DNA from: Pontibacterium sinense
GTDB lineage: Bacteria > Pseudomonadota > Gammaproteobacteria > Pseudomonadales > Balneatricaceae
Direction: 5' to 3'
Assembly: GCF_015209595.1 (NCBI RefSeq)
Contig: NZ_JADEYS010000010.1
Coordinates: 1-64,000 of the forward strand
DNA: 64,000 bases
Numbering within the stretch: position 1 is the first letter of the stretch; each line of letters starts with the position of its first letter. The position numbers and the translations under genes are program-made. Below, piece by piece: positions 487 to 63,742 of the stretch. Under the pieces are notes generated by a model that saw nothing but the letters and a program-made list of their open reading frames with translations, searched no databases and was not told where the DNA came from.

Positions 487-1593
487 CTAAGAAATATGCT
501 TAGCCAGAGTTGCTGCTGCAGCCTTAGCTTTCTGTGGCGTATACCCATACCCAAGGCTAATTCTCAATGTTTTTTCTCCCTGCTCGAAGCTTAACCCTAT
601 TGCACGAAGAACGTGGGATATATCAATAGCCATCGAAGAACAGGCTGAGCCTTGAGAAATAGCTAACTCTTCATCTCTCATAAGAGACTGAATGTCCAAT
701 TTTTGAATTGTTATATTTAGAATGTTTGGAATTACCGAAACCCCGCCATTGATTGTATAGCTACAATATTTGCCAAGTTCATTGAGAAAGGCAGATCTAA
801 CTTCACCAATTGCCACTTGATCAATATACAACCCACTTTGTGATACTGCCTCACCCATACCAATGATTAATGGGCTGGCAAGCGTCCCCCCCCTTAATCC
901 TAGCTCTTGGCCTGCCCCATGAATCACAGGGTCAACTTTTGTTTCTCTTAGGTCTCTAATATATAGGGCTCCGATCCCTTTTGGTCCGTAGCATTTGTGG
1001 GCCGAAACTGACATAAGGTCGATATACATATCATCAACATTTATGTCCAATTTGCAAAACGATTGTGCTGCGTCGGTATGAAACAAAACACCCTTATCAA
1101 AGCACAAAGCACCGATTTCACGAATCGGTTGTGTTGTACCTAATTCGTTATTTACATGGCTTATTGAAACTATGATAGTGTCATCTCGAATCACTTTAGA
1201 AATAGAGGCAGAAGTTATTTCACCGTACTTATTCGGCTCAACGTATGTAATCTCAAATCCTTCATTTTCAAGATAGTTACAAATTGAGAGTATGCACTTG
1301 TGCTCTATGGAGGAGGTGATAATGTGTCGTCCCTTATCCCTTCGAGCAAGCGCAATGCCTTTTAGCGCGAGATTATTGGATTCAGTGGCACCACTTGTAA
1401 AGACTATCTCACTAGGGTAGGCACCAATTTTATCGGCGATTATCTCCCTTGCGCGCTCAACAGCTTTCGCTGCTTTTCGCCCTTGATAGTGTGATGATGA
1501 AGGATTTCCAAAGTCTTCGCAAAACCAAGGAATCATAGTCTCCAGAATAGCCTTCGGGAGAGGTGTGGAAGCAGCATAGTCAAGGTAAATCAT
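487..1593 (-). CDS. dndA: Cysteine desulfurase, DndA/IscS type
   Basis: A 368-aa PLP enzyme of the NifS/IscS family that takes sulfur from L-cysteine as a persulfide. The PLP lysine is K200 in SVSAHKCYGPKG. The catalytic cysteine is C318 in the QGSACSS loop. The N-terminal YLDYAAST and the GATESNN cofactor loop are also typical. Length and motifs fit DndA, the sulfur donor of DNA phosphorothioation. It lies 60 bp downstream of, and on the same strand as, the phosphorothioation-associated methyltransferase, so the two are probably cotranscribed. The family also includes IscS-like enzymes for Fe-S clusters; the dnd assignment rests on the neighbour. No dndB, C, D or E gene is visible, and these may lie beyond the left edge. 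The start is the ATG at 1593; its ribosome-binding site is weak. Confidence 0.82.
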   Translation of the reverse strand: MIYLDYAASTPLPKAILETMIPWFCEDFGNPSSSHYQGRKAAKAVERAREIIADKIGAYPSEIVFTSGATESNNLALKGIALARRDKGRHIITSSIEHKCILSICNYLENEGFEITYVEPNKYGEITSASISKVIRDDTIIVSISHVNNELGTTQPIREIGALCFDKGVLFHTDAAQSFCKLDINVDDMYIDLMSVSAHKCYGPKGIGALYIRDLRETKVDPVIHGAGQELGLRGGTLASPLIIGMGEAVSQSGLYIDQVAIGEVRSAFLNELGKYCSYTINGGVSVIPNILNITIQKLDIQSLMRDEELAISQGSACSSMAIDISHVLRAIGLSFEQGEKTLRISLGYGYTPQKAKAAAATLAKHIS

Positions 1594-1653
1594 ATTGGGA
1601 GCTCTAGGCGCAAGTGTTAGGAGATGATACCTGGCTACAGGCGTAAGAAGAAC

Positions 1654-3678
1654 CTACGCAGTGTAAAAGCGGTAGCCTTTAATGATTTTGCCCTCTGATG
1701 CCAACAACCGATCTAGCTCCTCTCTATGCGGCCCATATTCTCTATCTGAATCCACGAATGAGAACGCCGTTAGCTTATGATCAAAAGAAACTTGTTTCTT
1801 ATAGTCAGGAAATGAAGGATCGATATAGATGCTTTTCCAATATAGAGAAGGAGAGGTGAAGCAACCAGTGTACTCAAAGAAGTCTACATCTTGCTGTCTA
1901 AGCTTTACCTTAATCCTCTCTTTCAGCAAGGGGAGAGGAGAAGAGTCAAATCCCTCGTAATTCATAAACGATACTTTGCCAGAAGTGATATGTATTTTCA
2001 CCAGATCGATATCTTCTAGGTCACCAAACAACTGTGCCGCACACCCAACATAAATTCTAAGAGCTGAAGGCAGTAAGCCCACGAACTTTTCGTGAACAAT
2101 TAACGAGTGTCCAGGGTTAAGGTGACTGGCAGGGAGTTCTTCATGTGCCTTATTACACAACCCGTTAATTAAGGAAACGTCGCCTAATGAAAAAAGAAGT
2201 TTTTTCGCTTCGTCTATCACACTTTTGTATTTATCAAAGAACACCCTTATATCTCGCTTCATTGCTTCGGGCATGTCACTGTAAGTCTTTCTCTTTCCAA
2301 ATAGCGCAAGCGCAAAGTATACAAGCAAATCCTCTTTTCTCATCTGCTGAGCCCGCGCGAAGTCAGATGTGTCTACACATTGCCCAAGAATTCTGAACGC
2401 TTTCTGATGCGAACCGAGTGCTTCTCGCAGCTCACTAGAGCATACGAACTCATCATTAGCAGGCAATCGCCCAAGTTCTAAGCACTTCATCCAAAACTTA
2501 TCTAAGAGGCTTTTATGCGTAACGAAAAGCATCTCTGCACTTACATTTTTCCGATCACTATCCCCAGTAAGCTGCTTCCAAAGCTGCCTACGCTTATGAC
2601 GATTTGAAAGAAACTCTTGCTCTTGTAGCTTGTCTTTAAAAACGTAAAAAATGCCTGGAGCCACTGCTATAGCATCATCTTCTAATGTGCGCTCAATGAA
2701 GTCTTGAAGCTCAGACTGCGAATAGTATCTCTGGAATGTGTTGCGAGAGGTAAGTATACCGTCCTTATAAGGAGCAAATTTAGAGATCGTCGCTTCACCA
2801 GCTATCATGGCTGATATGACAAGAAGCCTTTTTGACAAAGCGAACGCTCTTTGGATAGCCTCAATGCGCTCATCTATATTTTCGATTACATTGATAACAA
2901 ATCCCAAGTTTACAATATCAGACTCTAGTTGCTCGGTATCAGGTCTAAAGTTAGGATCCCAACCACCCACATTTAAACCATGGGCTTCAAGCTCTCTTAA
3001 ATCGTCACCTTTACCACACCCGTAATCAAAGACTGAATGATTGCCGTTTAGGTATCCGTGTTTAGCTAAGCACTTGAACGGCGAAGATAGCTCATATCGA
3101 GTAATTGCTGTGAGATGGCGGTCGATTTTATCTTCGCTAAGCTCATCGGAAGCTACATCCACTTGAACCAATCGACCGTTGACCAGGCTATATCCTTTTT
3201 GCTTAATCAGTCGCTCCCACGAATCTTTGAATCCAATCTTGAAAGGGGTTTCGTACAGCCCTGCTGCTTCACCTTCACGTGTAATTGAGCAAAACTCGTC
3301 GTAGCAATCATTCGTAGGTTCGATAAACAGTTCTTTACGATGAAGAATGGGTGGATTCTTCGAATCAGAATACGATGTTACTTTGGTAGTCAGCAGACCC
3401 AAATCGACCGCAATGCTTTGCTCAAGTGAGGGGTATGACTCTGAGTAGAATGCTGGGTAACTTAAATACGAAACTTTGAAGTCTCTTGCATGCAGCTTGG
3501 CGATATTCCAGTCATCATCGCTAACCTTGATGGCCTGAGCGACTATAGCAAGGAAGCCAAAAAGTGCAGGGGACTGCGACCGCAAGCTTTCTTTATGTAA
3601 GTACTTTGCATCAGGAAGCCTTTTCGAATAACGAATTTCCGAAACAAGATGCAAGTATGCCTCTCTATCCATAGCCAT
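1654..3678 (-). CDS. DNA phosphorothioation-associated putative methyltransferase
   Basis: A 674-aa protein matching the phosphorothioation-associated methyltransferase family that accompanies dnd gene clusters. A SAM-binding motif I (VFDYGCGKGDD, residues 217-227) sits in a Rossmann methyltransferase domain. It is preceded by the family hallmark DRHLTAITRYELSSP and followed by LGFVINVIENIDERIEA. The role within phosphorothioation systems is not settled; its own modification target is unknown. The N-terminal 180 and C-terminal 300 residues show no other motif I recognise. The ATG at 3678 is preceded by AGGA at suitable spacing; the second ATG two codons later is possible. The gene runs divergently from the helicase operon and upstream of dndA. 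Confidence 0.82.
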   Translation of the reverse strand: MAMDREAYLHLVSEIRYSKRLPDAKYLHKESLRSQSPALFGFLAIVAQAIKVSDDDWNIAKLHARDFKVSYLSYPAFYSESYPSLEQSIAVDLGLLTTKVTSYSDSKNPPILHRKELFIEPTNDCYDEFCSITREGEAAGLYETPFKIGFKDSWERLIKQKGYSLVNGRLVQVDVASDELSEDKIDRHLTAITRYELSSPFKCLAKHGYLNGNHSVFDYGCGKGDDLRELEAHGLNVGGWDPNFRPDTEQLESDIVNLGFVINVIENIDERIEAIQRAFALSKRLLVISAMIAGEATISKFAPYKDGILTSRNTFQRYYSQSELQDFIERTLEDDAIAVAPGIFYVFKDKLQEQEFLSNRHKRRQLWKQLTGDSDRKNVSAEMLFVTHKSLLDKFWMKCLELGRLPANDEFVCSSELREALGSHQKAFRILGQCVDTSDFARAQQMRKEDLLVYFALALFGKRKTYSDMPEAMKRDIRVFFDKYKSVIDEAKKLLFSLGDVSLINGLCNKAHEELPASHLNPGHSLIVHEKFVGLLPSALRIYVGCAAQLFGDLEDIDLVKIHITSGKVSFMNYEGFDSSPLPLLKERIKVKLRQQDVDFFEYTGCFTSPSLYWKSIYIDPSFPDYKKQVSFDHKLTAFSFVDSDREYGPHREELDRLLASEGKIIKGYRFYTA

Positions 3679-4247
3679 ATGTGGTCCTACTTTTGGATAT
3701 TAAACGAAATACAACGACCACGCCCAGAGCTACCTGAAGACACGGTCAGTAACAATCATGATCGCGCAGCAATGTGCTACTCACAAGCTAGTATAGGCAC
3801 GAGCTTATATAACCATAGGTGCAAATTAATTCAGAAACCAAGCACCATGTTGTCGTATTGCGAAGAACACGCACACTCTCAGCTGAGGCATGACCCATTT
3901 GAACACAACAATATGGAAGGAGCATGTGATGTGAACCACAAACACAGAGAAATCTTTTTAATTTCATGCAGTTATGCTATATAGGCAATCCGCATCGTAT
4001 TAAAGACGATACGAAGATGGTCTGCGACCTAGCTGAACACCTCAACAAGAAGCAGTGTCGCACTCACTTGATTTTTGCGTACCCAGAATAGGCGCCTAGC
4101 GGCTATCGCAAAAGTTGTTAGCTAGTTGTGCTTTAACAAGCAAAAGTGGTAGATTCTGGGACAAAAGGTCAGCTACGACTCAGGGACTAGAACATAAGGG
4201 AGCTATTCTAAATAGCGTGTTGCAAAGGTGCACGGACGGACCAAAAT
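3679..4247. other. Divergent intergenic region between the phosphorothioation and helicase operons
   Basis: About 570 bp without a convincing gene. It must carry the start signals for two divergent operons. One open frame from 3649 overlaps the methyltransferase start and has no family resemblance, so I treat it as chance. I could not pick out a consensus promoter or a clear palindromic operator. Confidence 0.5.
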
Positions 4248-5882
4248 ATGCTTAAAGAAATATTGTCGAACTTTTCTGAGGATGAGCTTCTAAGCTTCCT
4301 TCCTAAGGAAGCTGTTGAGTTTGCTTTATGTGTATCTGACACTGATGACGAAGGCGCCTTCAACAAGGAACAATTAGCTGAGATTGTAGCGAACACAAAG
4401 AAAGTCGACTTTGTGTTTAACGGAAAATTAAGAAATTTACTAATTGACCGTCTAAAGACCTCAATCTTCATTGATATTTTTCCAGAATTCAAATTAGTCG
4501 AAAATGAAGTAAAGCCAATTCATTATCAGGCAGCCATCAGCTGGGCTGATGAAAATATTCAGGAATTTTCAAAAAAAATAGAGCTTGAATCTATATATAA
4601 AAGCGAAACAAGCCTAAACACTTCGGTCGAGAGCATATCCAGTATTGAACCTGCCTATCCACTATATCCTTACCAGCAAGCTATATCTAAAAACGTTCTT
4701 GCTTCTCTTCAAAATAAAGAAAGAATCCTGATTCACCTCCCTACTGGTGCGGGAAAAACAAGAACAGCAATGAATATTGTATCCGAACACCTTAGAGAGT
4801 CTGAGAATAATGTTGTGTTGTGGTTGGCTGATAGGGAGGAACTTTGCACCCAAGCGTTTTCTGAATTTAAAAAAGCTTGGAGTTGCCTAGGCAATAGATC
4901 ATCAACAATATACGGCATATATTCAACTTCAGATGAAAGCTTAAGCGGCATTGATTCAGGCTTCGTTGTCGGCGGACTTCACAAGCTACTAAGCATAAAA
5001 AAGAACGACTCGAATAAATTAAAATTATTATACAGAGAGCTCTGCCGCTCAGTAACTTTAGTGGTTTTCGATGAAGCTCATAAAGCTATTGCGCCTAAGT
5101 TCAAGGAAGTAATTAATGACTTTGTTGATAGGGAGGACTTTTCTGCAAAGCTATTGGGCCTAACAGCCACACCTGGTCGTGTATATTCAGACGAACCAAT
5201 ATTTTCCGAAGAGGATAGGCAGCTTTCAGATTTCTTTTATAAAAACAAAGTATCAATGGAGATGCCTGGCTATATATCCCCTATAGATTATCTGGTTGAA
5301 AATGGGTATTTAGCAAAAGCCAATTTCAAGTCATTGAATTATGATGGGTCTGGAATATCCGCCTATGAGTTAAGAGACTCAGGCGGAGCAGAAACAGTGA
5401 CCGCTCTAGCAGGTAATAAGGAACGAAACAAAAGAATCATAAACAAAACTCTCGATGAGTGCGAGAGAGGTTCTCAAATAATCATCTTTGCGTGCACCGT
5501 TCAACATAGCATAAACCTTGCGATAGCTCTTGCTTGCGAAGGAATAAAAGCCGCATCTATAGATAGCAAAAATGATTCACCCGAAAGCAGAAGGGCGAAG
5601 ATCGAACAATATAAAAAATGTGAAATACAAGTCCTAGTTAATTTCAATGTTCTTACAGCAGGATTTGATGCCCCTAAAACCAATGTAACCATTATCGCCA
5701 AGCCCATGAACTCCTTGGTTCAATATCTCCAAATGGCAGGAAGAGCTATGAGAGGGATAAAGAGCGGGGGAAACAGGGAGTGCAACATATATACAGTCAT
5801 GGATGAAATTCCAGAGTTCCAAAGCATAAATATAGCATTTGAATATTGGAACAATATGTGGTCTGTATCAGAAAAGGACTAA
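4248..5882 (+). CDS. SF2 DEAH-box helicase of a MORC-type restriction cassette
   Basis: A 544-aa superfamily II helicase or translocase. Walker A is LPTGAGKT (about 164-171), motif II is DEAH (275-278), motif III is GLTATPGR, and motif VI is MAGRAMRG near the C-terminus. PYQQAI just before motif I resembles a Q motif. The first 130 residues are family-unknown and rich in acidic and hydrophobic residues. The stop codon is 2 bp from the next gene's ATG, so it is translationally coupled to the GHKL ATPase. Helicases of this kind occur with prokaryotic MORC ATPases and nucleases in restriction-like defence operons. The likely task is ATP-driven movement along or remodelling of invading DNA. Activity and substrate are inferred. 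Confidence 0.85.
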   Translation: MLKEILSNFSEDELLSFLPKEAVEFALCVSDTDDEGAFNKEQLAEIVANTKKVDFVFNGKLRNLLIDRLKTSIFIDIFPEFKLVENEVKPIHYQAAISWADENIQEFSKKIELESIYKSETSLNTSVESISSIEPAYPLYPYQQAISKNVLASLQNKERILIHLPTGAGKTRTAMNIVSEHLRESENNVVLWLADREELCTQAFSEFKKAWSCLGNRSSTIYGIYSTSDESLSGIDSGFVVGGLHKLLSIKKNDSNKLKLLYRELCRSVTLVVFDEAHKAIAPKFKEVINDFVDREDFSAKLLGLTATPGRVYSDEPIFSEEDRQLSDFFYKNKVSMEMPGYISPIDYLVENGYLAKANFKSLNYDGSGISAYELRDSGGAETVTALAGNKERNKRIINKTLDECERGSQIIIFACTVQHSINLAIALACEGIKAASIDSKNDSPESRRAKIEQYKKCEIQVLVNFNVLTAGFDAPKTNVTIIAKPMNSLVQYLQMAGRAMRGIKSGGNRECNIYTVMDEIPEFQSINIAFEYWNNMWSVSEKD

Positions 5883-5884
5883 CA

Positions 5885-7699
5885 ATGAGCAACAGATTTT
5901 TAAGTGCCTCTACTGTAATTGAGTCACTAAGAGACAACGGCTATAACAATACAGCTTATGCGCTTGCAGAACTAATTGATAACAGCCTACAAGCAGGTGC
6001 AAACAGGGTCGAAGTAGGATTTATTGAAGGACTATTAACCACTGGCGTTAGAAAGAATTATTCAGTATCTGAGATATCTCTTTGGGATAACGGGATTGGA
6101 ATGGATGCCGAGACCCTGCGCTTAGCAATGCAGTTCGGCGGAGGCACCCACCGCAATGACAGAGAAGGCATGGGTAAATTTGGAATGGGATTACCAAACT
6201 CATCAATATCCCAGTGCAAGAGGGTCGAGGTTTGGAGCTGGCAGAATAGCGATACCCCAAACTATACGTACCTTGATGTCGATGAGATGAAATCGGGAGA
6301 CTTGGAAGAGGTTCCTGAGCCCGTTAAGCGACAAATCCCTCCTGAGTATGAAAAAGCGTTTTTCACCAAAAGGCCGCCGTCAGGAACTCTTGTTGTTTGG
6401 TCTAAACTAGATCGATTAAGCTGGAAGACAGGAAAGTCGATATATCGTCACTGCGAGCACCTTGTAGGGCGTATGTATAGGAACTTCATTTGCAACGACA
6501 ATATAAAGATTGAAAGTATTGTTTATAGAAAAGAAAGCGAAGATCGCCTAGCAGTTTGGGAGCGTGAATTGTTTAAGGCAAATGATCCAATGTATCTCAA
6601 AAAGAACACTTCATTACCAGAGCTACCTGGGCATTACAAAAAAGAAGCGTTTTTTGAGCTAATGGACGAGGAGGTTGTATCTGTTGAGTATTTGGATGAC
6701 AAGGGCAATCCAAAGCGATGCGACGTAACTATAACCACCTCAATGGTTAAAAAAAATATTACGAAGAATATTTTAAAGGATACCGTAGGCAAACTTGGTA
6801 GCACAGAGTGGGGCAAGCATTGCAGCAAGAATGTGGGTGTCTCTATTGTACGAGCAAATCGAGAGCTAGTATTGCGTGATTCGTTCCTGACTTCTACTCT
6901 CCGAGAAAGTAAAGGTCGCTTTATAGGTATTGAAGTCTCATTTCCTCCATTATTAGATTCTGTATTTGGTGTAACCAACAATAAGCAAGACGCTGTAAAG
7001 CTGATCCCTTATGACATGAGATCAATTAGTTCTCAAGCAGGCTTTGATTCAGAACAGGAATACTTGAGAGATTTAGAAGATAATAGTGATTCACTACTTC
7101 AAGTTTTAAAAGTTGTGGCAGTAGTAAAAAAACAAATTTCAGCTTTAACCAAGTCTCTAGAAACAATCGATGTGGCGGGAAAGGCTACCAAGCAAGGGGC
7201 CAAGTCCGAAGGAGCTGCAGAAGGCGCTGCTGACAAAGCCACACAGGGTTCTGTCCAAAGGGAAAAACATGGTCACAAAACAGGGACTATCACTACTCCT
7301 CTGAAAAAGGCTGACGTGGTTGATCATCTCAAAAATGCTGGAGGGATGACCCAGAAAGAGGCGGAAGTTAAGGCAGAGCGACTAATACTAACAGGTAACC
7401 GCTTCCTAATAGAGGATGTTGCGAGAGATTCTGAAGCGTTTTTTGATGTCTCAACCAGCAAAGGATTGACTCTAGTTCTGTTAAATACTAACCACGCATT
7501 CTACAAGAAACTAGTTAGCAAGCTTGGCGACGAGGAATTAGAAGTGCTTCAAACCGCGATTGCAGGCTTTGCACGTGTAATGAACGAAACCACCGACGAA
7601 AAGCGATTAAAGTACCTAAATACAATACGTCGAGAGTGGGGTATTGTTATTAGTGAATTCTTAGACGATCCTTCTGACGACTGTTTCGACGATTTTTAA
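5885..7699 (+). CDS. MORC-like GHKL ATPase
   Basis: A 604-aa protein with an N-terminal GHKL (HSP90/MutL/histidine-kinase fold) ATPase. The N box is ELIDNSLQAGAN (E29, N33), the G1 box is DNGIGM (68-73), and a glycine-rich lid MGKFGMGLP sits at about 96-104. This arrangement matches prokaryotic MORC-family ATPases, described as parts of restriction-modification-like systems. An S5-like transducer probably follows (about 250-370). Residues 420-480 are low complexity (Ala, Gly, Lys), a likely linker to a C-terminal helical domain. I chose the ATG at 5885, with AAAAGGA upstream, rather than an earlier in-frame start inside the helicase gene. ATP-dependent clamp or loop formation on DNA is an inference from MORC biology. 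Confidence 0.82.
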   Translation: MSNRFLSASTVIESLRDNGYNNTAYALAELIDNSLQAGANRVEVGFIEGLLTTGVRKNYSVSEISLWDNGIGMDAETLRLAMQFGGGTHRNDREGMGKFGMGLPNSSISQCKRVEVWSWQNSDTPNYTYLDVDEMKSGDLEEVPEPVKRQIPPEYEKAFFTKRPPSGTLVVWSKLDRLSWKTGKSIYRHCEHLVGRMYRNFICNDNIKIESIVYRKESEDRLAVWERELFKANDPMYLKKNTSLPELPGHYKKEAFFELMDEEVVSVEYLDDKGNPKRCDVTITTSMVKKNITKNILKDTVGKLGSTEWGKHCSKNVGVSIVRANRELVLRDSFLTSTLRESKGRFIGIEVSFPPLLDSVFGVTNNKQDAVKLIPYDMRSISSQAGFDSEQEYLRDLEDNSDSLLQVLKVVAVVKKQISALTKSLETIDVAGKATKQGAKSEGAAEGAADKATQGSVQREKHGHKTGTITTPLKKADVVDHLKNAGGMTQKEAEVKAERLILTGNRFLIEDVARDSEAFFDVSTSKGLTLVLLNTNHAFYKKLVSKLGDEELEVLQTAIAGFARVMNETTDEKRLKYLNTIRREWGIVISEFLDDPSDDCFDDF

Positions 7700-7722
7700 A
7701 TACTGGGTTAAGAGGAGCGGTC

Positions 7723-8637
7723 ATGGGGTTAATTTCTAACGAGCAGTTAAAGCGTGAGCTGGATAAATACATCCCAGGCTGCTCCTCATTGAATGTCATC
7801 TCTGCATTTGTATCTATGCCTGCAGTAAAATGGCTGAATAGCATTGTTTGCGAAAACGGCACCAAAGTATGCATTGTTGGTAGATTTAGCCCAATGGATT
7901 TTGCTAATGGTGCCAGCGATTTCGAGTCTTTAAGACAATGCTTAAGGCAAGGACATACAGTCAAGGCTCTACCTAACCTACATGCGAAGATTTACCAAAT
8001 AGATTCCGAAATTATTTTTACAGGTAGCGCCAACATGACAGGGAGGGGACTTTCCTTAGTAGAAGCAAGCAATCTGGAGTCATGTGCTAGAGTCGAACCA
8101 ACAGGAGACACCAAACATTTCATATCAAGAATAGTTGATATTGCATCCATCATTACTCTTAATACATTGGATCAGATGGAGTTATATCTTGACAAGTCAT
8201 CCTCTGAAAATCAGAAAAAACCTCTAACAGATTGGCCTAAAGATATCTTACCTAAGCCCCAAAGCATCTTTGTTTCTGATTTCCCTTTATGCGAGCCTGG
8301 TCAAGCCAATGAGGTCTACCTAGCAAACCCCGCCTTAGAATTCGCCGCGATTGAATACAATCGATCAAACTCATACGTTGCAAAGAATCTGTTTAGAAGT
8401 TCGAAAGCATACACATGGCTCGTCTCTCACCTGCATGAAATAGAGAAAGACAGAGGCTTGGGATTTGGAAAAGTATCTAGCCTACTTCATAGAGATTTAG
8501 CTGATGACCCAGCTCCGTATCGCCAAGAGGTTAAAGAACTGGTAGCGAATTTATATAAGTATATCGAACTATATGCCAGTGAAGAGGTGCTGGTTCATGT
8601 TCCAGGCCGAAAAAGCCAGGTTGTGACACTTCTCTAA
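7723..8637 (+). CDS. PLD-fold nuclease of the MORC cassette
   Basis: A 304-aa protein with one phospholipase D HKD motif: HAKIYQID gives H87, K89 and D94, followed by FTGSANMTGRGL (S102, N104). Single-motif PLD proteins usually dimerise to form one active site, as in BfiI-type and Nuc-like nucleases. In a helicase plus GHKL operon the reasonable role is DNA cleavage. It starts 23 bp after the MORC-like gene with AGAGGAG as ribosome-binding site, so it is the third gene of the operon. The C-terminal half has no motif I recognise and could bind DNA or the partners. Confidence 0.8.
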   Translation: MGLISNEQLKRELDKYIPGCSSLNVISAFVSMPAVKWLNSIVCENGTKVCIVGRFSPMDFANGASDFESLRQCLRQGHTVKALPNLHAKIYQIDSEIIFTGSANMTGRGLSLVEASNLESCARVEPTGDTKHFISRIVDIASIITLNTLDQMELYLDKSSSENQKKPLTDWPKDILPKPQSIFVSDFPLCEPGQANEVYLANPALEFAAIEYNRSNSYVAKNLFRSSKAYTWLVSHLHEIEKDRGLGFGKVSSLLHRDLADDPAPYRQEVKELVANLYKYIELYASEEVLVHVPGRKSQVVTLL

Positions 8638-15212: not shown

Positions 15213-15416
15213 TTACCCTGTTTTCATTGTTTGTATGCTCCTGCTAATAAAACGCTCAATCAAAACCAAATATTGGTCCTGATTAACAATTACTATTATA
15301 GCGAAGATGAAAATATATGACAAGACATGTAATGATATGTGTGCACGAGAAGCGACAAGAGAAGTGAGCGCATCAGCATATTTCGCAATCACTGATTGCG
15401 AGATGAAACACAGCAA
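15213..15416 (-). CDS. Possible small membrane protein (67 aa)
   Basis: A TTG-started frame with a central hydrophobic segment (VLSYIFIFAIIVIV) followed by a charged tail. Its stop is 7 bp before the next minus-strand ATG. The start codon is weak, no ribosome-binding site stands out, and the 5' end overlaps the direct repeats at 15412, so this is uncertain. Confidence 0.22.
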   Translation of the reverse strand: MLCFISQSVIAKYADALTSLVASRAHISLHVLSYIFIFAIIVIVNQDQYLVLIERFISRSIQTMKTG

Positions 15417-15495
15417 AAGTGCTCTTTATGGCAGTAAAAGTGCTTCTAGCGACATTAAAAGTGTCGTCAAGAACACATGAACTGTCTTGAAAGTG
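15412..15495. repeat. Three to four 21-bp direct repeats (iteron-like)
   Basis: Units start at 15412, 15433, 15454 and, degenerate, 15475. The core is AGYAAAAGTGCT or ATTAAAAGTGTC, placed exactly 21 bp apart, or two helical turns. The array lies between the minus-strand small-gene block and the structured candidate RNA. Such arrays occur at replication origins and at cooperative regulator sites; no replication initiator was recognised, so the role is open. Confidence 0.6.
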
Positions 15496-15540
15496 AAAAG
15501 TCAATTTATGGTATAGATACTATCTCTGCTATAAAGTGAT

Positions 15541-15943
15541 GTTGGAACGCATTGCGAAGCTGTCGAAGACCAAAAGCTCTACCCATACTGGGATAAACGT
15601 AGTGTCCGAGTATGGAGGGGCGGTTCGTTGCCTCCCAGACCAGATGCGAGCCTGCGAGTATCTAGGTATGGGTGGTAGCGAATAAGCTCGACAAGCAACG
15701 TAGTGACTTGTAATTGTGAGGAACGAGCAATTATAAGGCATGGGAGTTGTGCAGGCGAGTGCAAAGCCTCTACTAGCATTCTTTGAATGCCTGGGCTTTC
15801 TGCGAGAACGAAGTGAAGCAGGAAGGGGGCCCAGGTATGCAAAGGAGGCGTTAGGACGCAGCTCTTCAACGCAAGTCCGCACCCCTAAAAACACAAAAAA
15901 ACAGAACCAAAGCCTGGCACAAGGCCCAAATCCTGGCTTTATA
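15541..15943 (+). ncRNA. Candidate structured non-coding RNA (about 400 nt)
   Basis: A GC-richer block inside very AT-rich DNA, full of stems and lacking a credible protein frame. Stems: CCATACT (15583) with AGTATGG (15609), or alternatively ACCCATAC (15581) with GTATGGGT (15666); ACAAG with CTTGT (15691-15711); CTTGTAATTG (15707) with CAATTATAAG (15728); GCATTC with GAATGC (15776-15790); CCTGGGC plus TTTCTGC (15790-15803) with GCAGGAAG and GCCCAGG (15818-15835); AAAGCC with GGCTTT (15909-15940) at the end. Wobble pairs in two stems are G-U only if the plus strand is transcribed. I match it to no known RNA class. Confidence 0.5.
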
Positions 15944-16052
15944 TTCAAATACTAAAATATTAAAAATGTGTATTAATTATAGATAATATATTTACTATTA
16001 TGTATAGTTAGTATTATCACTAAAAAATAAAAACAATAAGAGTGTGATACAA

Positions 16053-17132
16053 ATGAAAGACTTAATGAGTCATGAAGAGTTTATAGAAGCTACTACTGTA
16101 GAGTGGCATCTCCACAAAGACACGTACTCTGGATATATCAGAGATGCTTACAAATTCATTTTCTCTAATAAGAAGTTTGCAAGGCTTCTTGATGGGGAAA
16201 ATACAGAAGATGTTTTGCGATCAATCTTTGATAGTGAACAAGCTATCGATATGATCAAGCAAATGCTGACCAAAGAATCAAAAAGCAGAACTTCAAACTC
16301 TTGGAGAAAGCTTCGTAGATCTGCAGCTGTGTTGGCGAAGAGTGTTGGGAGTGATGATTTTGCAGCCTCTATGGTTGGTAAAAATGCTTGGAAGAACCCG
16401 ACTCCAGAATCGCAGCGCTTTCGTCAGACTGGTAAATCTCTTCGACAGAAAACGGTTACTGATATCGACTTCAATATGATCATGGCAAATAGAAGAGAGT
16501 CAGAAGATTCAGAATCTTGTGCATTGCTCAATATTGGAAGATATCTTGGAGCTAGGCCAACTGAAATGAATCGTATTGAAGTTCTTGATGCACAAGGCAG
16601 CGGAGAGATAACAGTCTTTATTGGCGGATCAAAGAAGACTAAAAAGGGCGAAAGCGGCCACTGGAAGCAGCGAGGTATTGATCGCACACTGACTCTGAAG
16701 TTAAGTCGCACAGAGATGATTGAACTTACAACATCGATTCTGATTGCAGATGGAATGGAAGACAAAGATGTTGAAGCTTGCAGAAAGCGAATCACTAGAA
16801 ATGTCAGCAAGATCTGGCCACAGCGTTCCAGGAAATTCTGCTTATATAGTTTGCGCTACACGATGGGTAGTAATCTGAAGAAGTCTTACAATGGCTATCG
16901 CAATAAAGACAAGCTTATTGCTGCCGCAATGGGTCATCTGTCTACTTCGTCAGCAAGTAGTTATGGCAACATTAAGAGCGGTGTAAAAACTGGTGTTCCA
17001 GTGCCCTCAAAAGAAACACTTGCTCAAGTAGAAGTTGATACTGGAAGAAAGCGAAGCTATGGCAAGCAAAGACGCAGACAGCGAACAATGCCAAGTGGAG
17101 CACCTGCAGCAGGGATGACTGCAAGGATGTAA
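16053..17132 (+). CDS. Tyrosine recombinase-like protein
   Basis: A 359-aa protein with a divergent tyrosine recombinase catalytic domain. The first Arg box is LGARPTEMNRI, a Lys-rich strand is GGSKKTKKGE, box II is LYSLRYT with Tyr in place of the usual His, and the final box is AAMGHLSTSSASSYGNI with the likely nucleophile Tyr. The N-terminal 120 residues would be the arm/core-binding part. The tail is very basic. The start is the ATG at 16053 with AAGAG upstream; a GTG 9 bp earlier is possible. It lies just downstream of the structured RNA block. It is distinct from the integrase at 19454, and its target site is unknown. Confidence 0.65.
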   Translation: MKDLMSHEEFIEATTVEWHLHKDTYSGYIRDAYKFIFSNKKFARLLDGENTEDVLRSIFDSEQAIDMIKQMLTKESKSRTSNSWRKLRRSAAVLAKSVGSDDFAASMVGKNAWKNPTPESQRFRQTGKSLRQKTVTDIDFNMIMANRRESEDSESCALLNIGRYLGARPTEMNRIEVLDAQGSGEITVFIGGSKKTKKGESGHWKQRGIDRTLTLKLSRTEMIELTTSILIADGMEDKDVEACRKRITRNVSKIWPQRSRKFCLYSLRYTMGSNLKKSYNGYRNKDKLIAAAMGHLSTSSASSYGNIKSGVKTGVPVPSKETLAQVEVDTGRKRSYGKQRRRQRTMPSGAPAAGMTARM

Positions 17133-18351: not shown

Positions 18352-18418
18352 ATGTAATGACAGATATTGACATTTATCCTACCAGTCCTATAATTCAGGT
18401 CATAATATGTCATTACAT
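18352..18418 (+). promoter_or_regulatory. parA promoter flanked by inverted ATGTAATGACA sites
   Basis: TTGACA (18367-18372), a 16-bp spacer and TATAAT (18389-18394) match the sigma-70 consensus fully. ATGTAATGACA (18352-18362) and its inverse TGTCATTACAT (18408-18418) flank the promoter symmetrically, as expected of a repressor or partition autoregulation site. Confidence 0.65.
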
Positions 18419-18436
18419 ATATGGAGATATAGAGAT

Positions 18437-19126
18437 ATGGCTAGAGGTATATTGATCGGTGGTCAAAAAGGCGGCACGGGAAAGTCACTGGTTGCTTGTA
18501 ATCTGGCAACGATGATCTCTAGTCAGGGGATGGATGTCGTACTTGTTGATTGCGATATCCAGGCAACCAGTTACAAGTTCTGGAGTCGTAGAAGTGAAAA
18601 GGATTTTGACTGCATTCTTGAGCGTCATGATGTTTTTGATATTGCAAAGTTCGAGGACACCCTTCAGCAATGTCGAATTAATTATGACGTGTTGGTGGTT
18701 GATGTTGGCGGTCAAGACTCGAAGCATCTTCGCGCTGCCCTGGCTTGTGATGCTATCGATGTACTGCTTTCACCAATACAACCATCTTTCAGTGATATAG
18801 AAACTCTTGTGCATCTAGATAATCTTGTTGAGAGCGCGATACAGTTCAATACAGAGCTAGATACGTACTGTCTTGTAAATCGCTGTCATTACAATCACAA
18901 TGTCACTAGCAGAAAGTCTGCTCTCGGCTTTATCGATAAGCACTGTAAAAACCTCAAGAGCTTCGATCAAACTCTGACTGATCTGATCGCTTACAGACAA
19001 GCATTTGGTAAGGGTCAATCTGTTATCGAGTTCGAAGATGTTCGAAACGGTAGTAAGCGATGCAGTGCTGAGATGCAGCTTCTATATAAGTGCTTGACTG
19101 GCCGTAACTACAAGGTAATGACATGA
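18437..19126 (+). CDS. parA: ParA-family partition ATPase
   Basis: A 229-aa P-loop ATPase of the ParA/MinD group. The deviant Walker A is KGGTGKS (11-17), followed by VVLVDCDIQATS (Walker A') and VLVVDVGGQDS (Walker B). Size fits small plasmid-type ParA proteins without an N-terminal DNA-binding domain. It would move DNA cargo along the nucleoid. I chose the ATG at 18437 with GGAGAT upstream; an earlier ATG at 18407 lies inside the operator-like site. Its TGA overlaps the ATG of the next gene (ATGA). Presence in an integrated island suggests a plasmid-like or ICE-like stage. Confidence 0.82.
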   Translation: MARGILIGGQKGGTGKSLVACNLATMISSQGMDVVLVDCDIQATSYKFWSRRSEKDFDCILERHDVFDIAKFEDTLQQCRINYDVLVVDVGGQDSKHLRAALACDAIDVLLSPIQPSFSDIETLVHLDNLVESAIQFNTELDTYCLVNRCHYNHNVTSRKSALGFIDKHCKNLKSFDQTLTDLIAYRQAFGKGQSVIEFEDVRNGSKRCSAEMQLLYKCLTGRNYKVMT

Positions 19127-19453: not shown

Positions 19454-20860
19454 ATGGCGAAGTCTGTTGTTTTTAATGGTTTTGAAGGTTTTGCTGAACC
19501 AGGGGTTGAAGTTCGTGGCTTATCTATTCGAATCTACTTTAATTATCGTAGCAAACAAGAGAAGCCAAGATTTTGTTCGATTGAAAATGTCCATTCAGTA
19601 AAGCAATTTCAGGATCTGCTTGATGAAGCAAGCGATATTCAAAGATTGCTTGATCGAATGTCAAAGCGCGGAACGCTGACAGATGAAATCTACGCAACCC
19701 ATCTTCCAGAGTCTGAACTTGCAAAAAATAGGGGTGGAAGCAGAGCAACAGTAAACTTTAAACAACTGGCTCAGAGATACCTCGATGACCAGGAACCGCT
19801 CGTGCGCAGGGGAGATATCTCTGGCGGCACAGTAGAGTCTCGCAGAAAAGCTCTCATAACATCACAACACATGAACAAGCTGTCAGCGATGCGTGATATG
19901 CCGAAGAATCATAAGCACACGTTACTGTATCAGCAAGGGCTCGGTGATATGCGAATTGGTGATATCACTTTCGATGTGCTTCGCAAGCTGCAGACATATT
20001 TGTATGACTATGCTCCAAGAGAGACTGGTAAGTTCGGATACTCTGAAAAATATGTGAATAACATATTGGATGCCATTCGGCAGGTATTCAAATACGCTCT
20101 GCAGCATCAAATAGTAGAGAAAGATCCATCGGAAAACATAAAAACTCTTCGCGTACCCACAAAAAACAAGCTTGAAGAGCAAATGTTTTTCGACTTCGAA
20201 GAGCAAGAAGCCATCTATCAAGCTTGCATAGATGACAATAAGCCATGCCTTGCGGAAGCATTTAAGTTCGGATGCTGGACAGGACTTCGAAAAGAAGAAC
20301 TGCTTGCATTGGCTTGGGAAGACATCAATTTGGAAGCAAATTCGGTGACTGTAACAAGGGCGTACACAAGAGAAGATGAATTTCATCATCCAAAAACCAA
20401 AACCTCTTATCGATCAATTGAACTGCTTGATGATGCTCGTGACGCACTAGATAGAGCGTATCAACACACTAGTGAAGCAGAGCCAAAAACATTCATGGTA
20501 AAGCGGCCAGAACAGAACGGTAGAGTTCCAGAAGAGCTGCGTTTGGTGTTTCAAAACTTTGCCAAAGGTGGGCCAATACCCCGTGCTTGGAATGAAGGAT
20601 CGCTTCGAAAGGCTTGGAATAGAATAAAGAAGCTTTCTGGCGTAGATCTGCCATTCAAATACGTTCGGCACACGTATGGTTCTATGCGAATGTCGGCAGG
20701 AGGCATGGAAGAGGAAGTAGCTGATGAGATGGGGCACAATGGCACAACGATGGTTCATCGACACTACACAGTGCAGAGCAATAAGTTCAACAAGCAGATG
20801 ATCGCAAGCAAGAACAAGGCTATGAGCAAACTGAAGGAAGAGCTTGCTGAACTTGAATGA
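19454..20860 (+). CDS. int: Tyrosine integrase of the island
   Basis: A 468-aa site-specific tyrosine recombinase. Catalytic signatures are WTGLRKEELLAL (Arg I), KTKTSYRSIEL (Lys), FKYVRHTYGSM (box II Arg), EMGHNGTTMVHRHYTVQ (His and nucleophile Tyr). The N-terminal half contains SAM-like and arm-binding regions. It lies 150 bp from a tRNA-Pro 3' fragment, the expected attachment site, and reads toward it. It probably integrates and excises the island. It follows the partition pair by 16 bp and may be cotranscribed. Confidence 0.9.
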   Translation: MAKSVVFNGFEGFAEPGVEVRGLSIRIYFNYRSKQEKPRFCSIENVHSVKQFQDLLDEASDIQRLLDRMSKRGTLTDEIYATHLPESELAKNRGGSRATVNFKQLAQRYLDDQEPLVRRGDISGGTVESRRKALITSQHMNKLSAMRDMPKNHKHTLLYQQGLGDMRIGDITFDVLRKLQTYLYDYAPRETGKFGYSEKYVNNILDAIRQVFKYALQHQIVEKDPSENIKTLRVPTKNKLEEQMFFDFEEQEAIYQACIDDNKPCLAEAFKFGCWTGLRKEELLALAWEDINLEANSVTVTRAYTREDEFHHPKTKTSYRSIELLDDARDALDRAYQHTSEAEPKTFMVKRPEQNGRVPEELRLVFQNFAKGGPIPRAWNEGSLRKAWNRIKKLSGVDLPFKYVRHTYGSMRMSAGGMEEEVADEMGHNGTTMVHRHYTVQSNKFNKQMIASKNKAMSKLKEELAELE

Positions 20861-46859: not shown

Positions 46860-47009
46860 GGGTTTTTATATGTGTGTTTATAGGGTTTGTCTTTTGTTTT
46901 TAAATTAATGTGTCGCCAATGGTATAGAATTTTGTGAATTCAGATTTATATATTTCATCCCCTTTATTCGTAGGTGAGATTCTAGAACGGTTACGACAGC
47001 CGGTGTTTA
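46860..47009. other. AT-rich gap before the MITE-like element
   Basis: No gene was found. A 60-aa open frame starting at 46934 runs into the repeat element and is probably chance. Confidence 0.4.
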
Positions 47010-47289
47010 AGGAACCTGCGAATAAGTCCGAAACGACTCTGGCTTTTAGAGCAATTCGAGATCAAGGCAACGATTACAGCCATGCTGGTTGCCTCAGGAT
47101 CGCCTGCCGGACGTAAATCGCTAACGTAGAGATCGGGTTGCTCTAAAAGCCCCGAAGGGCGGGTGTTAAAACAGCTTTCTGCTTTGTCAGGCAGCTTGGA
47201 AAGGACCAGTCATTCCACTGCACTGCCTTTCGCACATAAAGCTGTTTTATCTCCCGCAGAGAAAGTCTCGGACTTGTTCGTAGGTTCCT
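47010..47289. mobile_element. MITE-like element with 25-bp terminal inverted repeats
   Basis: A 280-bp segment bounded by AGGAACCTGCGAATAAGTCC (from 47010) and the inverse of AGGAACCTACGAACAAGTCC (to 47289); the ends match at most of 25 positions. Inside are two perfect inverted pairs: GCTTTTAGAGCAA (47042) with its inverse (47138-47150), and TAAAACAGCTTT (47167) with its inverse (47238-47249). There is no transposase frame. No clear target-site duplication was seen. It lies between the LysR gene and the porin. Confidence 0.75.
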
Positions 47290-47334
47290 CAGCACCACCT
47301 AAAAATAAAACTCGCTAAAAAAGCAGGGTGAAGT

Positions 47335-63276: not shown

Positions 63277-63742
63277 GGTTTCGCCCTGGTTGGGCGAGGT
63301 AAGGGGAAATATCGATTTCCCCTTACCAATCCCCTACGACCCCTAATACTTGCCGGACTTCGTCCGGTGCCCTGTGCGCTTCGTAAACAATCGGCGCTGC
63401 GGAACTCGGCCTAAGGCCTCAGACAGTCCTCGCGCTTTTCGATTGTGTACTCCAGTGCTCGGCTGCGTAGAAGGGGCTGAATATCCGTGCGAAATTTGGA
63501 TTAGGGTGTTTTTTTGTACTATCAGATTGGCACGGTGCCTAATCCCTTCAGTGCAGCCGAGCATTGCAGAAATAAAACGATTAAAAGCAAATTCTGTTTG
63601 AGGCCAAAGGCCGAGTTTATTTGCTTCGTATTATATCGAAACGCGCAGGGATGTTGGCGTAGCCAACCAAACTGTAGGGCTGATGGGGATTGATAAGGGG
63701 AGTTCAGCGACTCCCCTTGTCTCGCCCAAAAAGGGCGAAACC
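63277..63742. repeat. Two inverted copies of a structured repeat (arms about 199 bp)
   Basis: Arm 1 (63277-63475) and arm 2 (63544-63742) are imperfect reverse complements. Shared blocks in order: GGTTTCGCCC-N-TTGGGCGAG, AAGGGGA-N-TCCCCTTA then CAATCCCC, AACTCGGCCT-N2-GGCCTCA then ACAG, and TGCTCGGCTGC then GAAGGG. Each arm contains its own small hairpins. The spacer is 68 bp. No transposase. It sits between pqqD and pqqE. Open frames inside it (for example 63350-63601) are by-products. Confidence 0.75.

Follow-up and report, generated by a model that had tools for sequence, protein, structure and literature searches.

A structured element with covarying relatives beside a tyrosine recombinase gene of Pontibacterium sinense, a candidate RNA part of a mobilization module

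A 64,000-nucleotide stretch of the Pontibacterium sinense genome (the window) carries, at positions 15541–15943 of its + strand, a strongly structured non-coding block that is followed on the same strand by the gene for a Cre/Xer-like tyrosine recombinase (16056–17129). The fold is biased to one strand, blocks beside related recombinase genes preserve their pairing through compensatory changes, and many share with the window an inverted repeat, here called P1. We give an even chance to the reading that the block is the cis-acting, + strand RNA part of a mobilization module around a tyrosine-recombinase (TR)-type relaxase. What the data establish is the fold, its strand bias, the family, and its linkage to the recombinase; transcription, cutting at P1, and a part in conjugation are inferred. 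An earlier note on this DNA had proposed a functional non-coding RNA, perhaps with a switching 5' domain, next to a recombinase gene. A structured non-coding element is well supported, by relatives with compensatory changes and by the absence of a protein gene; the 5' switch is the part that found no support.

Folded as + strand RNA, the block reached a minimum free energy (MFE) of -156.9 kcal/mol (z -5.48), equaled by none of 100 shuffled sequences, and the fold of the - strand RNA was ordinary against shuffles (z -0.37). Among GC-corrected 300-nucleotide segments of the 64 kb, the block ranked third on the + strand and was absent from the - strand list. Its GC fraction is approximately 0.50 versus 0.27 to 0.40 in the AT-rich flanks, and G-U pairs make up 18 of 129 pairs on the + strand versus 10 of 120 on the - strand. 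The strong stems, the GC-richer island, and the wobble pairs pointing to the + strand that the earlier note had described were thus all borne out. Two other segments of the window, 47001–47300 and 63401–63700, folded unusually well on both strands.

A 139-amino-acid open reading frame (ORF) with a TTG start spans the block on the - strand, which would speak for a decayed protein gene or a chance structure. Neither this ORF nor two shorter ones across the block matched Pfam, and the 139-amino-acid ORF had no plasmid match, in line with the claim that no credible ORF is present. Given ORFs without protein relatives, the shuffling result, and covariation among relatives, we find a decayed gene or chance structure hardly credible, and the decayed gene was rejected on the first of these grounds. 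No known RNA family accounted for the block either: Rfam 15 gave no match in the window at gathering score, the best matches on the block in a permissive search were chance, and a search for transfer RNAs (tRNAs) and transfer-messenger RNAs found none. At the DNA level, no homologue of the block came up among relatives, plasmids, or phages; a single weak match (locus L002) falls in a stretch that looks protein coding.

Relatives of the block were instead found through the recombinase. One scan with four aligned proteins yielded 72 recombinase loci in Aeromonas, Amphritea, Halomonas, Halopseudomonas, Pseudomonas, Stutzerimonas, and others, many of which adjoin a co-oriented block of common plan, consisting of P1, an immediate G-tract, a closing stem (P0), and purine-capped hairpins. 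P1 reads CATACT..AGTATG in these relatives, or TTACTCGC..GCGAGTAA in one group. Covariation was measured on alignments of the relatives, with the window block not among them. In 17 aligned Pseudomonas-type blocks, 92% of cells are paired, and compensatory changes occur in 20 of the 32 pairs. A two-pair helix closing a small terminal loop has A-U in place of G-C in 8 of the 17 sequences. The covariation score was 0.431; shuffles gave 0.194, and sliding the alignment gave no more than 0.111. A further alignment, covering 12 Aeromonas, Amphritea, and plasmid blocks, had invariant P1 arms and covaried only towards the loop. The earlier note had suggested looking for the block upstream of related recombinases; homologous blocks are present in the orientation of the gene at many loci, downstream of it in some, and with many compensatory changes. 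Rfam, applied to 19 related loci, detected one tRNA and one CRISPR repeat and nothing else, both outside the blocks.

The relatives also point to the + strand as the one under selection. The 17-block alignment holds 20 G-U cells versus 7 A-C cells, an excess expected under selection on that strand. Across 21 blocks, + strand folds contain 121 G-U pairs versus 57 in - strand folds, and the + strand is always purine rich (53 to 62%). A strict tandem-GA descriptor matched five times upstream on the + strand and never on the - strand in 10.8 kb, which is suggestive only. Separately, at three loci (L030, L035, and L047), P1 is preceded at a short distance by another inverted repeat, CCGTACTCGA..TCGAGTACGG, and the block is flanked by TTTGAYRTCAAA repeats; two Pseudomonas loci (L094 and L099) have longer palindrome arrays upstream of P1.

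The main rival explanation is that the block acts only as single-stranded DNA, as an origin of transfer (oriT) and/or a complementary-strand origin (sso/Frpo-like) on the transferred strand, with no RNA product. We consider this possible, although unlikely. Folding of the block as single-stranded DNA gave z scores of -3.4 for the + strand and -1.5 for the - strand, such that the + strand also beats its shuffles as DNA, and C-GAA-G loops are known to form very stable DNA hairpins. Furthermore, in work on plasmid pIGRK a region of this kind is regarded as oriT DNA (PMC8152469). However, the RNA z score is the stronger (-5.5), the 21 blocks favor G-U pairs on the + strand, and the precedent in Salmonella genomic island 1 (SGI1) is an RNA that works in trans (PMC9299015).

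P1 of the window (CCATACT..AGTATGG, + strand, 15583–15615) is formed by 15583–15589 paired with 15609–15615 and is a candidate site for binding and cleavage by the recombinase. The pattern of P1 with its G-tract matched at one place in the 64 kb and was never produced by 100 shuffles, and a near-identical pattern occurred three times in 390 genomes. The arms are invariant in sequence across Aeromonas, Amphritea, Pseudoalteromonas, and Enterobacter, as expected if a protein binds there, and the arrangement looks like a paired binding site. The G-tract (+ strand, 15617–15620) follows P1 immediately, as it does in relatives, and serves as the 5' side of P0 or as partner of 15577–15580. In the full block, GGGGC at 15617–15621 pairs with 15576–15580. 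When 15582–15885 is folded alone and unconstrained, P1 forms and P0 joins the G-tract to the final C-rich segment, with 15617–15623 pairing with the 3' side of P0, CCGCACCCC (+ strand, 15877–15885). The earlier note had seen two mutually exclusive partners for 15581–15589 and drawn from them a switching 5' domain. Both partners exist, but the second, GUAUGGGU at 15665–15671, has a probability of approximately 0 in the full-length ensemble; because P1 dominates that ensemble, a switch at 15581–15589 is unsupported. The more plausible alternative pairing is that of GGGGC 15617–15621 with either 15576–15580 or 15877–15885.

The protein encoded at 16056–17129, in an ORF that opens at 16044, matched no Pfam or NCBIfam family but conserves the tyrosine-recombinase catalytic set (R167, K193, Y264..R267, H294, and Y303). 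Its structure model (predicted local distance difference test score, 82.6) has Cre as its best match among solved structures, with modest template modeling scores. Genome and viral contigs scanned for recombinases with this protein as the only query yielded none, and no relatives were found in phage records. A tblastn search with it found relatives at 25 to 29% identity on plasmids, two of them of approximately 3 kb; one of these plasmid relatives, pPDDCC3357-6, used as query, reached MobK of pIGRK (E 4e-6) and other plasmids of 2.3 to 3.8 kb. MobK is a proven conjugative relaxase of the tyrosine-recombinase type; immediately upstream of mobK lies an intergenic region that serves as its oriT and contains AGCGA motifs as well as a G-rich run that is essential (PMC8152469). 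The window resembles that arrangement in its homologous catalytic domain with a Y-G nucleophile and in a structured intergenic region with GA/AGCGA hairpins and a G-rich run, and it differs in having its own P1 arms, CATACT/AGTATG; the pIGRK region has been described as oriT DNA only. The 16056–17129 gene is best read as encoding a TR-type mobilization protein. The recombinase that the earlier note had placed next to the block has all catalytic residues of a tyrosine recombinase, and integrase alone is not the best description of it. The mobilization reading draws support from the link between the plasmid relatives of the recombinase and the relaxase MobK, as well as from the integrase and ParA-like genes carried by the same island.

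A parallel for an RNA role is SGI1, in which sgm-sRNA is encoded between oriT and mpsA and read in the direction of mpsA; this RNA acts in trans, and transfer requires it (PMC9299015). In the window and in many relatives, P1, block, and recombinase follow one another on the + strand, with the block downstream of the gene in some other relatives; with P1 as a putative oriT, the window would match the SGI1 order and strand. In both systems, an RNA would lie co-directionally beside an oriT and the gene for a TR-type relaxase, with its 3' end next to that gene, the oriT role being a putative one in the window, and both belong to integrative elements. SGI1 uses two proteins, MpsA and MpsB, whereas the window has a single protein with its own N-terminal domain, and the likeness drawn here between the block and sgm-sRNA (SGI1 mob 1295–1572) is one of layout. 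By analogy, P1 (inverted repeat plus G-tract) may be the core of an oriT that is bound and nicked by the recombinase-like protein. The rest of the block would be transcribed from the + strand into a structured RNA with a long-range closing stem and purine-rich, GNA-type hairpin caps, and this RNA could help to assemble or deliver the transfer complex during conjugation, as is thought for sgm-sRNA in SGI1.

Alternatively, the recombinase may move its own element, with the RNA serving the recombination complex as cofactor or guide. IS110 elements offer a comparison, since their bridge RNA is likewise a structured RNA next to a recombinase gene, although the enzyme is a DEDD recombinase in IS110 and a tyrosine recombinase in the window. 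P1 does resemble a Cre/Xer-type core site, Aeromonas has recombinase genes in tandem next to the block, and orphan copies without the gene occur, for example near ftsA/ftsZ. Against this, close relatives are carried by very small plasmids, on which the homologue MobK acts as a relaxase, and we regard RNA-assisted movement of the recombinase's own element as improbable. A bolder proposal, which we put forward as speculative, is that these are RNA-dependent tyrosine recombinases, in which the Cre-like protein is bound by a structured RNA that it needs for cleavage at P1 or that guides this cleavage, making up an RNA-assisted conjugation or recombination system across several orders of Gammaproteobacteria.

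The placement of the block relative to the gene bears on whether it is a 5' leader, an attenuator or riboswitch controlling the recombinase gene. Its upstream position in the window and many relatives and the presence of alternative pairings would suit such a role. However, at Aeromonas loci and at L033 and L034 the block follows the gene instead of preceding it, it can sit more than 1.5 kb upstream at some Amphritea loci, and some copies, including in the genus of the window, have no detectable recombinase gene in the region examined. Mainly on the downstream and orphan copies, the leader was rejected, and we judge it very unlikely; downstream, far-upstream, and orphan copies argue against a leader and fit a cis- and trans-acting part of a mobilization system. 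The orphan copies include those of L158 (5212–5306, near ftsA/ftsZ), L150 (3790–3884), and L151 (4999–5088).

The mobilization reading must also be weighed against several observations that do not favor it. Two covariance models, R1 and R2, together picked out the block at 41 of the 76 recombinase loci, a linkage that speaks for the module, and 14 of these 41 lay outside the model-building set; the other 35 loci have no detectable block. Most Stutzerimonas-type relatives likewise have none that could be detected. At Aeromonas and some Halopseudomonas-type loci, other recombinase-like genes precede the gene, an order that fits a role in transposition as well. The protein of the window has a predicted helical, Cre-like N-terminal domain, while MobK, MpsA, and TcpM lack an N-terminal core-binding domain (PMC8152469). 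Lastly, R1 gave the window block itself a score of just 9 bits (E 0.012 across 901 bases) in an alignment on P1, and R2 gave no match. Because of these scores, its membership rests on P1, position, and recombinase. The window block is a divergent member of the family, tied in by P1 and the G-tract (the succession that marks the new family), by its position, by the recombinase, and by similar capped hairpins. Full model matches fall on the strand of the gene, and weaker - strand matches overlap or adjoin the palindromic P1. Within the family of the window, 6 of 99 genomes have the block, its own genus included. At L021, the recombinase gene is the third of three in tandem, and at L028 and L033, recombinase-like ORFs lie directly upstream.

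The block family is a widespread and, it appears, previously undescribed set of structured elements that are carried by small plasmids and genomic islands. In the open-licence literature searched, sgm-sRNA of SGI1 is the only RNA that we found to be needed for transfer with a recombinase-type relaxase, and a covarying RNA/oriT family in single-gene modules on 3-kb plasmids would offer a minimal, testable system for how such an RNA works. P1, G-tract, and block would in addition provide a signature by which plasmids and islands currently classed as non-mobilizable could be recognized as mobilizable. The module is present on plasmids typed as non-mobilizable (L010; L015, pPS1M3; and L011, pPDDCC3357-6), which may hence be open to mobilization in a way that typing overlooks.

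Several further features of the block and its surroundings were recorded. All those within or bordering the block are on the + strand. A putative extended -10 promoter, TGcTATAAA (15527–15535), was read from the sequence, although a consensus scan did not flag it, and would start transcription at approximately 15542. The fold contains two long hairpins, UUCGUUGCC..GGUAGCGAA (15623–15683) and one at 15780–15845 whose loop, GAGAACGAAGUGAA, resembles the loop motif of relatives. Between them, a hairpin at 15707–15737 is capped by tandem GA and a G[GAA]C loop, and this capped motif also occurs in relatives, on the + strand only. A weak repeat, AAAGCC..GGCTTTATATT (15909–15940), may act as a terminator but is not the local MFE structure. 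Just upstream of the block, at 15410–15463 (strand not assigned), lie three iteron-like 12-nucleotide direct repeats (..AAAAGTG) spaced by exactly 21 nucleotides. The ParA-like ATPase (18407–19126) and phage-type integrase (19454–20860) of the island are both encoded on the + strand; in this draft genome, the contig begins at the window start and the left end of the island lies beyond it. Finally, positions 487–8637 hold a defence-like cluster that encodes an SspA/DndA-type cysteine desulfurase, a PbeA-like DEAD helicase, an MzaB-like ATPase, and a DrmC-like phospholipase D (PLD) protein.
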